From: Actinomycetes bacterium
GTDB lineage: Bacteria; Actinomycetota; Actinomycetes; Streptosporangiales; Streptosporangiaceae
Length of the DNA stretch: 64,000 nt
Direction: 5' to 3'
NCBI GenBank assembly: GCA_025964575.1
Contig: JAOPYO010000172.1
Location: 1-64,000, forward strand
The notes beneath the pieces are model-generated. The model saw only the letters and a list, made by a program, of their open reading frames with translations. It did no database searches and was not told the DNA's origin. The stretch's first letter is position 1. The number at the start of each line of letters is the position of its first letter. Of the stretch, positions 35,638 through 57,335 are shown piece after piece. The position numbers and the translations under genes were made by a program.

Positions 35638-36639
35638 TCACTCGCCGCGCAAACCGGCACCCGTGGTCTCCTCGTGTGGCGGCGCGACGGCCGGCGGGCC
35701 TCCGCGGACCTTGATCAGGCTGGCCACCGTGGTGACGGTCATGGTCCCCCCGATCACCGCCAGGGACAACCAGATCGGGATCTCGGGAGCCCACGAGACG
35801 TGATAGCTGTGCAGCGCCTCGAGGATGAGCTTCACCCCGATGAAGCCCAGGATGAACGCCAGCCCATGACTCAAATAGACCAGTCTCTGCACCAGCCCGC
35901 CCAGCAGGAAGTACAGCTGGACCAGGCCCATCAGGGCGAAGGCATTGGCGGTGAAGACGAGGTAGGGCTGCTTGGTGATCCCGAAGATGGCGGGGATCGA
36001 GTCGAGGGCGAACAGCAGATCGGTGGAGCCGATCGCGATCATGACGATGAACAGCGGGGTGAACAGGCGCCGGCCATGCCGGCTGACCGAGAGACGTGAT
36101 CCTTCGTACCCGGTGGTGGTCGGCAGAACGCGTTTGCTCCAGCGCAGCAGCGCGTTCTCCGTGAACTCGTCCTTGTCGTGGCCGCGTGCCAGCCCGACCG
36201 CGGTCCAGATGAGGAATGCACCGAAAAGGAAGAACAGCCACTGGAACTGAGCGATCGCCGCCGCACCGACCGCGATGAATAGGCCGCGCAGGATCAGCGA
36301 GATCACGATGCCGTACATCAGCACCTTGTGTCGGCTGGTCACCGGCACGGCGAACCGGGTCATGATCACATAGAAGATGAACAGGTTGTCGACGCTCAGG
36401 CTCTTCTCGGTGAGGTAACCGGCGAAGAACTGCGCCGACTGAGTGCCACCGGAGAAGACCAGCACGCCGAGGCCGAAGAGCGAGGCCAGCGCGATGTAGA
36501 AGACCGACCAGCCCGCCGCCCGGCGAGGGGTGAACTCGCGGGGCTCGCCGCGATCGACCAGGACCAGGTCGGCGACGATCAGGGCTACGACACCCATCAT
36601 GGTCAGGGCCCAGACCCACAGCGGTACGTTCACGATCAA
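35638..36639 (-). CDS. TerC family integral membrane protein (Mn exporter-like)
   Basis: TQSAQFFAGYLTEKSLSVDNLFIFYVIMTRFAVP; STDLLFALDSIPAIFGITKQPYLVFTANAFALMGL. GTG at 36633 fits SD spacing better than TTG at 36639. Confidence 0.95.
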   Translation of the reverse strand: MIVNVPLWVWALTMMGVVALIVADLVLVDRGEPREFTPRRAAGWSVFYIALASLFGLGVLVFSGGTQSAQFFAGYLTEKSLSVDNLFIFYVIMTRFAVPVTSRHKVLMYGIVISLILRGLFIAVGAAAIAQFQWLFFLFGAFLIWTAVGLARGHDKDEFTENALLRWSKRVLPTTTGYEGSRLSVSRHGRRLFTPLFIVMIAIGSTDLLFALDSIPAIFGITKQPYLVFTANAFALMGLVQLYFLLGGLVQRLVYLSHGLAFILGFIGVKLILEALHSYHVSWAPEIPIWLSLAVIGGTMTVTTVASLIKVRGGPPAVAPPHEETTGAGLRGE

Positions 36640-36640
36640 G

Positions 36641-36777
36641 CCTCCGGCGACAGATGTCTACGCCGGAGGTCTCTCCCGCCCGCACCGGGGTGCTTGGGGC
36701 CGGCAGCGCCGGGCCTTACTCCGTTGAACGGAGCAGACCGTGTTGACGACACTGCCGCGTAGGGATACTCCCCTCCA
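36641..36777 (-). ncRNA. yybP-ykoY family (manganese) riboswitch upstream of TerC
   Basis: Minus strand GGAGGGGAGUAUCCCUACGCGGCAGUGUCGUCAACACGGUCUGCUCCGUUCAACGGAGUAAGGCCCGG...GGCGGGAGAGACCUCCGGCG...CGCCGGAGG; GGGGAGUA and GAGACCU hallmarks. Confidence 0.8.
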
Positions 36778-36811: not shown

Positions 36812-36931
36812 GTTCCTCGTGACGTCGAGTCGTCCTCGCCTCCCGAAACGACCATGATGGGGTCTCGTCCCCCTCCGAAGGGGGCCCAGACACCATCATG
36901 AACGTCGGCCGGTGGAGGAACACGAGGAACT
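36812..36931. other. ~120-nt extended imperfect stem-loop of unknown function
   Basis: AGTTCCTCGTG (36812-36822)/CACGAGGAACT (36921-36931); CATGATGGGGTCT (36853-36865)/AGACACCATCATG (36888-36900, 1 mismatch); CCCCCT-CCGA-AGGGGG apex (36869-36884). Confidence 0.75.
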
Positions 36932-37036: not shown

Positions 37037-37789
37037 ATGCGGGACGTTCACCCAGCACCACCACGACGCCGGCCCTCCGCGCCGCGCCCCCGGGCCGCGG
37101 CGCCCCGGAAACGTCAGCGCGCGCGTCGCCCGGTCGACTCCGCACCGCTGTTCGTACGGATCCTCACCCACAACGCCGCGATCATCTGTGCCGTGATCCT
37201 GGCCGTGGGTGCGGGCGTCTTCTACTTCAGTCCGGGCAAGGGCGCGCCTCCGGTCGCCGCCGGTATGTCCGTCGAGCAGCTCGGCGATCTCATGAACCAG
37301 CAGTCCGACATGGACCCGGTGACCGCGAACGCGGTGGCCTACGCCAAGCAGCGGGCGTACGAGAAACAGGTCAAGGCCGATCGGCTCTTGGTCGAGAAGG
37401 CGAAGAAGGACGCCAAGGCCGCCGCCGCGCTGAAGGCCAAGAGGGACGCCGCCAAGAAGGCGGCGGCACTGGCCAAGGCCAATCCGACCTCTGCGCAGAA
37501 CCAGGCACTCGGCAAGCAGATGAACGCGCTCAAGGGCTGGAGCGGCTGCTGGCCGTCGCTGCTGACCATGTGGACCCACGAGAGCCACTGGAACGAGCGG
37601 GCCGACAACCCGGGCTCCGACGCCTACGGCATCCCGCAGGCACTGCCGGGCTCCAAGATGGCCTCCTCCGGCCCGAACTGGCAGACGAACTCGGCGACCC
37701 AGATCGCCTGGGGACTCGGCTACATCAAGGCTCGTTACCACGACCCCTGCGGAGCCTGGTCCTTCTGGCAGGCCCACCACTGGTACTGA
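37037..37789 (+). CDS. Lytic transglycosylase (SLT-like), membrane anchored
   Basis: C-term WPSLLTMWTHESHWNERADNPGSDAYGIPQALPGSKMASSGPNWQTNSATQIAWGLGYIKARYHDPCGAWSFWQAHHWY; N-term TM; coiled Ala/Lys region. Confidence 0.9.
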   Translation: MRDVHPAPPRRRPSAPRPRAAAPRKRQRARRPVDSAPLFVRILTHNAAIICAVILAVGAGVFYFSPGKGAPPVAAGMSVEQLGDLMNQQSDMDPVTANAVAYAKQRAYEKQVKADRLLVEKAKKDAKAAAALKAKRDAAKKAAALAKANPTSAQNQALGKQMNALKGWSGCWPSLLTMWTHESHWNERADNPGSDAYGIPQALPGSKMASSGPNWQTNSATQIAWGLGYIKARYHDPCGAWSFWQAHHWY

Positions 37790-57096: not shown

Positions 57097-57125
57097 GCTA
57101 GCCTGGCGCGATAGCCGACTTACCC

Positions 57126-57335
57126 CGCGCGGGAGAGCGCCCCCACAGCCGGTGGTGGCCGCCGAAGGAGCAACTCCTCCCCGGAACCTCTCAGGCCCAA
57201 GGACCGCGTGGGTGAGGTGACCTCTGGAAAGAGGGGATCCCAGGATCCTCCGCCGACGGTGCAAGCGATCCAATGGATGTGAAAACCCATGGATCGTGAA
57301 ACTCTCAGGCGCTGATGACAGAGGGGGAGGGCACC
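57126..57335 (+). ncRNA. Tandem glycine riboswitch (two aptamers)
   Basis: GCGGGAGAGCGCC...CGCCGAAGGAGCAAC...GGAACCUCUCAGGCCCAAGGACCGC then ACCUCUGGAAAGAGG...CGCCGACGGUGCAAG...GUGAAACUCUCAGGCGCUGAUGACAGAGG. Confidence 0.93.

Follow-up and report, generated by a model that had tools for sequence, protein, structure and literature searches.

A gene encoding a TerC family integral membrane protein is located at 35638..36633 on the minus strand of the window, the whole 64,000-nucleotide stretch of DNA analyzed here, which comes from a Streptosporangiaceae genome. It starts with GTG, and its product matched Pfam PF03741 TerC with 167 bits, in agreement with a sequence-only reading of the same DNA, which had placed TerC downstream of a regulatory leader. 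The start codon of the terC relatives is the same codon as GTG 36633. The nearest named relative is that of the MAG RYN_225 (89% TerC identity), followed by Actinomadura and others. A second terC in the same genome (G000:C337:3575-4522, L199) is 72% identical and has a short leader without the aptamer; the terC paralogue of RYN_225 likewise has a short leader and no aptamer. One of the two terC copies in the genome may be riboswitch-controlled and the other not. A hairpin at 36852-36899 (CATGATGG...CCATCATG, -32.7 kcal/mol, z -4.1) lies in the interval between terC and the divergently oriented gene at 37037. As a part of the system it was set aside, being a single copy in the genome and having no yybP-ykoY loops. 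The window also contains a tandem glycine riboswitch (RF00504) at 57120-57331 on the plus strand, with scores of 67.4 and 45.1 bits.

The leader of terC was divided into the following features. The L1 and L3 counts are based on 97 distinct leaders. R1 is a covariance model built only from 33 aligned terC-leader aptamers, with E-values from a shortened calibration.

36664..36777, minus strand: Mn2+ riboswitch aptamer, class-assigned to the yybP-ykoY type, without helix P2 (covariation; R1 86.8 bits, the window being one of the 33 source sequences of R1)
36772..36776, minus strand: 5' strand GGAGG of the P1.1 switch helix, paired with 36665-36669 in 33/33 leaders
36766..36771, minus strand: 5' side of L1, GGAGUA, invariant in 97/97 leaders
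36762..36765, minus strand: 5' strand of P1.2, UCCC, partner GGGA at 36674-36677 (100% paired, one two-sided change)
36757..36761, minus strand: 5-nt junction linker in place of the classical helix P2 (4-6 bases in all 33 aligned leaders)
36747..36756, minus strand: 5' strand of P3.1, partner 36702-36711 (two-sided changes in 6/10 pairs)
36740..36746, minus strand: L3 loop UCAACAC, whose A3 is the expected N7 ligand of Mn2+ (A3 in 97/97)
36712..36739, minus strand: P3.2 hairpin (covariation alignment)
36702..36711, minus strand: 3' strand of P3.1 (covariation alignment)
36678..36700, minus strand: P4 hairpin, the 3' junction helix (two-sided changes in 5/6 pairs)
36674..36677, minus strand: 3' strand of P1.2, GGGA (covariation alignment)
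36670..36673, minus strand: 3' side of L1, GAGA in the window; GGGAGAGAC(C)UCC in 96/97 leaders
36665..36669, minus strand: switch strand CCUCC, the P1.1 3' strand and anti-SD core, counted in both helices
36661..36664, minus strand: anti-SD extension GGCG, a possible toehold for the SD helix, holding all four of its pairs with two-sided changes
36641..36649, minus strand: SD arm CGCCGGAGG, including the SD GGAGG at 36645-36641 (spacing to the start codon 7 nt; anti-SD pairing in 96.3% of cells)

Read along the minus strand, the order is GGAGG-GGAGUA-UCCC (36776-36762), UCAACAC (36746-36740) and GGGA-GAGA-CCUCC (36677-36665). The yybP-ykoY-like strings named in the sequence-only reading were located where it had put them, with GGAGGGGAGUA at 36776-36766, UGUCGUCAACACGG around L3 at 36746-36740, and the 3' arm string GAGACCUCC at 36673-36665. 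The internal loop L1 (GGAGUA/GAGA, 36771-36766 and 36673-36670) is present between P1.1 and P1.2, as is a 7-nt L3 with A at position 3. The four-way junction with helix P2 known from solved structures is absent in the window, where only the 5-nt linker is found. When cut before the SD arm, the leader folds into the P1-closed aptamer. A TANNNT box was present 13-19 nt before P1 in 52 of 97 leaders, compared with 17.6 in shuffles; no such match exists at this distance in the window's own leader. Such a box in many leaders suggests that terC transcripts start near P1.

Conservation and class of the leader

The element was found upstream of all 30 terC relatives first fetched and of 79 of the 80 relatives from named genomes (109/110 in total, with some genomes in both sets). 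The sole relative without it (L107) is a paralogue whose leader is short. L3 in the 97 distinct leaders was UCAUCAC (45), UCAAUAC (20), UCAGCAC (18), UCAGUAC (10), UCAACAC (2), CCAUCAC (1) or UCACCAC (1), so that its third base is always A. The same A was present in all 72 loci of the phylum set where L3 was called, for which the search pattern itself required CA. In the 33 aligned leaders, 93.5% of cells were paired over the 29 aptamer pairs, and two-sided changes occurred in 14 of these. The two-sided-change cells numbered 82, compared with 22.9 in shuffles; no shuffle approached this value, which was also far above all slid registers. In P1.1, four of the five pairs never vary in the terC set, and support there comes mainly from one G-U alternative; this constancy is expected because the strand serves two helices and an SD. 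The GAAGG/CCUUC and CGAGG/CCUCG versions of the wider set add support to P1.1. GC-rich leaders fold readily, and single-sequence z-scores were modest (-2.3 to -3.4, with -3.4 for the whole leader against shuffles), as would be the case for motifs arising by chance in such a leader. This explanation has a negligible probability and is already refuted by the covariation, the element being kept in 109 of 110 leaders.

The sequence-only reading had expected a match to the Rfam model RF00080, and this expectation failed. At the window, RF00080 gave no match at the gathering cut-off or at E<=10, and only chance families were reported; in 121 genomes of the family, it gave no match above the gathering cut-off (45). 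Other Mn-type leaders of the family scored 19-31 bits with this model. A search for GGGGAGTA-N50-80-GAGACC returned a single, unrelated site, and it missed the window because the spacing there is longer than N50-80. The genome itself gave weak RF00080 matches of 24.4 and 12 bits; these were rejected as terC elements, as they mark different Mn-type aptamers, located upstream of exchangers. Two Na/Ca exchanger genes of this genome (L128/L200 and L129/L201, on G000:C265 and G000:C448) carry Mn-type aptamers with L3 ACAUGCU and R1 scores of 50-53 bits. The exchanger leader on C265 has an extra hairpin, GACCUUCGGCCC/GGGGCCGAGGUC, which overlaps the 3' strand of P1.

RF00080 also gave no match on the E. 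coli alx leader (L125:1376-1499) and scored the mntP leader at 44.9 bits, against the cut-off of 45. Its cut-off therefore cannot decide class membership, because it misses the reported Mn riboswitches alx and mntP. The model R1 recognized the alx leader with 34.1 bits (E 3.9e-7 in 3.5 kb) and the mntP leader with 21.0 bits (E 5e-4, filters off). On these comparisons of sequence, the miss at the window is a shortcoming of the model and not of the sequence. By convergence, a structured RNA that binds a protein or some other ligand could also resemble the yybP-ykoY class, and the lack of an RF00080 match and a junction smaller than that of the solved structures would fit this. R1 nevertheless reaches both E. 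coli Mn riboswitches, the target genes agree, and L1, L3, P3 and their order constitute the ligand pocket of the class; we consider convergence very improbable. The identity as a yybP-ykoY aptamer proposed from the sequence alone is thus upheld by covariation, by the invariance of the Mn-ligand adenosine, by the cross-recognition of alx and mntP, and by the known target genes downstream.

Many actinobacterial Mn riboswitches escape RF00080, as does a proven one of E. coli; Mn regulation is therefore understated wherever annotation relies on this model.

Pairing of the switch strand with the SD

The 3' arm was also proposed to pair with the arm holding the SD of GTG 36633, to the exclusion of aptamer folding. 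Both proposals are borne out. The strands CCUCCGGCG and CGCCGGAGG form a perfect 9-bp pairing, and a 9-bp complement appeared in only 28 of 20,000 dinucleotide-shuffled versions of the 151-nt leader. The aptamer and the SD/anti-SD helix exclude each other because CCUCC is common to both; both helices covary, and the SD changes with P1. In the 33 leaders, 96.3% of the cells of the SD/anti-SD helix were paired, and two-sided changes were found in four of its nine pairs, above slid controls. The SD arm of Actinotalea (L120, L122), GUACCGGAGG versus CCUCCGGUAC, is a further compensatory version of this helix.

Among the R1 matches of the phylum, leaders with P1 GGAGG/CCUCC had the SD GGAGG in 15 cases and GAAGG in none. 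Those with P1 GAAGG/CCUUC had GAAGG alone in eight cases, GGAGG alone in one and both in one. The association was significant when related sequences were treated as independent and the mixed leader was excluded (Fisher p 1e-5). The two CGAGG/CCUCG leaders have CGAGG as SD. These data indicate that the SD tends to follow the switch strand. That P1 and SD change jointly supports strand exchange on comparative grounds. An SD exactly complementary to P1 was found near the predicted start in only about half of the phylum-wide R1 matches; for the remaining half, other platforms or wrong start calls exist.

The probability that the SD is unpaired was 0 in the free ensemble and 0.77-0.96 with the aptamer enforced. 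The SD-paired form was lower by 9.6 kcal/mol in the window and by 5.9-17.7 kcal/mol across all 33 leaders, as calculated with nearest-neighbour energies that leave out tertiary and Mn2+ contributions.

We believe that the terC leader is very probably a riboswitch of the yybP-ykoY class in which Mn2+ turns translation ON, in an alx-like form without P2; this agrees with the translational activation by Mn2+ implied by the sequence-only reading. Mn2+ is inferred as the ligand from the class, and the ON direction from the class, the geometry and E. coli mntP. At low Mn2+, the CCUCCGGCG strand would pair with CGCCGGAGG in the covarying helix, so that the SD would be buried and TerC would not be made. 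As in the rest of the class, Mn2+ would bridge L1 (GGAGUA/GAGA) and L3 (UCAACAC, through N7 of the conserved A), and P1.1 would be held. CCUCC would then be occupied, which would free the SD and allow translation of TerC, an exporter or chaperone of Mn2+. The choice is probably made during transcription, in which the aptamer would form first and Mn2+ would delay the step, led by the GGCG toehold, in which CCUCC leaves P1 for the SD arm. A kinetic choice is proposed because the energy gap (about 10 kcal/mol) is larger than a bound ion is expected to offset at equilibrium.

Control could instead be mainly transcriptional, with Rho ending transcription on a leader left untranslated by SD sequestration and the SD pairing being a partial effect. 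E. coli mntP is reported to be under Rho-dependent control besides its riboswitch (PMC11647493). No intrinsic terminator, terminator-like U-tract or sigma-70-type promoter was found in the terC leader, and the conserved alternative helix is formed precisely at the SD and varies together with it, which makes mainly transcriptional control unlikely compared with translational control by Mn2+.

Distribution and downstream genes in the phylum

R1 matches were present in 59 of 297 phylum genomes. The 69 downstream proteins included TerC (34), P-type ATPases (12), Na/Ca exchangers (5), M48 peptidases (3) and GDT1 (1). YrbG is a Na/Ca exchanger. In Vibrio, yybP-ykoY elements reportedly precede genes for TerC, YrbG-type exchangers and TMEM165/GDT1 (MneA), and the listed Mn efflux systems include P-type ATPases (PMC13274385). 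All four families, TerC, P-type ATPases, Na/Ca exchangers and GDT1, have thus been described as Mn exporters or as targets of yybP-ykoY elements. R1 matches were also seen before predicted M48 peptidases (L192, L193 and others), and some downstream proteins matched Peptidase_M50 or CBS domains; these are possibly a group of Mn2+-regulated membrane proteases.

There is about an even chance that these matches represent a large, largely unannotated actinobacterial subclass of Mn2+ riboswitches, with a three-way junction (no P2), an L3 that is mostly UCANNAC, and the 5' strand of P1.1, its 3' strand and the SD evolving as a three-strand set. If this is true, the subclass defines a Mn regulon of terC, P-type ATPases, exchangers, GDT1 and perhaps M48/M50 proteases, which is invisible to current Rfam annotation. 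For actinobacteria, including Actinomadura and Nonomuraea, the terC leader is a candidate for a Mn2+-controlled switch of unusual compactness, in which one strand would serve as both switch helix and anti-SD. Our literature search, which was thin on subscription journals, found no report on such terC leaders in Streptosporangiaceae.

Comparison with known Mn riboswitches

Actinobacterial terC leaders of this class and translational activation by Mn2+ are both already known. The C. glutamicum cg2157 leader, like that of the window, is an actinobacterial terC leader of the yybP-ykoY class, the likeness being one of annotation; it was assigned to RF00080 by an earlier Rfam with 49 bits, and its transcript was observed (PMC3890552). 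The alx and mntP leaders of E. coli are reported Mn riboswitches, and translational Mn2+ activation is known for mntP (PMC9603457).

The alx leader (PRE element, yybP-ykoY family) shares L1 (GGGGAGUA), P3, P4, GAGACCU and a TerC-family gene with the window. Its L3 is UCAUUAC, compared with UCAACAC in the window and UCAUCAC or UCAAUAC in relatives. As in the window, there is no P2 between P1.2 and P3 in alx, where the alignment places a 1-nt insertion; mntP differs in having 14 extra nt there, where P2 lies. By alignment, the terC leaders take the alx form and have a three-way junction, because their linker has 4-6 bases in 33/33 leaders and the insertion is 1 nt in alx and 14 nt in mntP. P2 is not needed for class membership, since alx also lacks it by alignment. 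The two differ in that alx has P1.1 AAGG/CCUU and about 80 nt from the aptamer to the start codon; in the window, the direct partner of the SD is the 3' strand of P1.1.

The terC leader resembles alx more than it does the consensus of RF00080, and reporters of alx and mntP show a joint response to alkaline pH and Mn2+ (PMC9603457). A same-class aptamer with the same P1/SD exchange might accordingly respond chiefly to alkaline pH, or to both pH and Mn2+, as in E. coli alx. Against this, the L3 adenosine is strictly kept, the downstream genes encode Mn exporters or chaperones, and in E. coli pH exerts its effects, at least in part, by making Mn2+ bind more tightly (PMC9603457). We regard sensing of pH as unlikely and retain Mn2+ as the probable signal.

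RF00080 (Rfam 15) shares L1, L3, P3 and GAGACCU with the window but differs in its consensus, which shows ACAUACU as L3 and includes a P2 hairpin. The L. lactis yoaB and X. oryzae aptamers share with the window a 7-nt L3 with the A ligand, a sarcin-ricin-like L1 and the P1.1 switch helix; their L3 loops are UCA41AUUC and ACA48UACU, and N7 of that adenosine binds Mn2+ in the solved structures (PMC6754395). Unlike the window, both have a four-way junction with P2, and yoaB controls transcription termination and not SD access.
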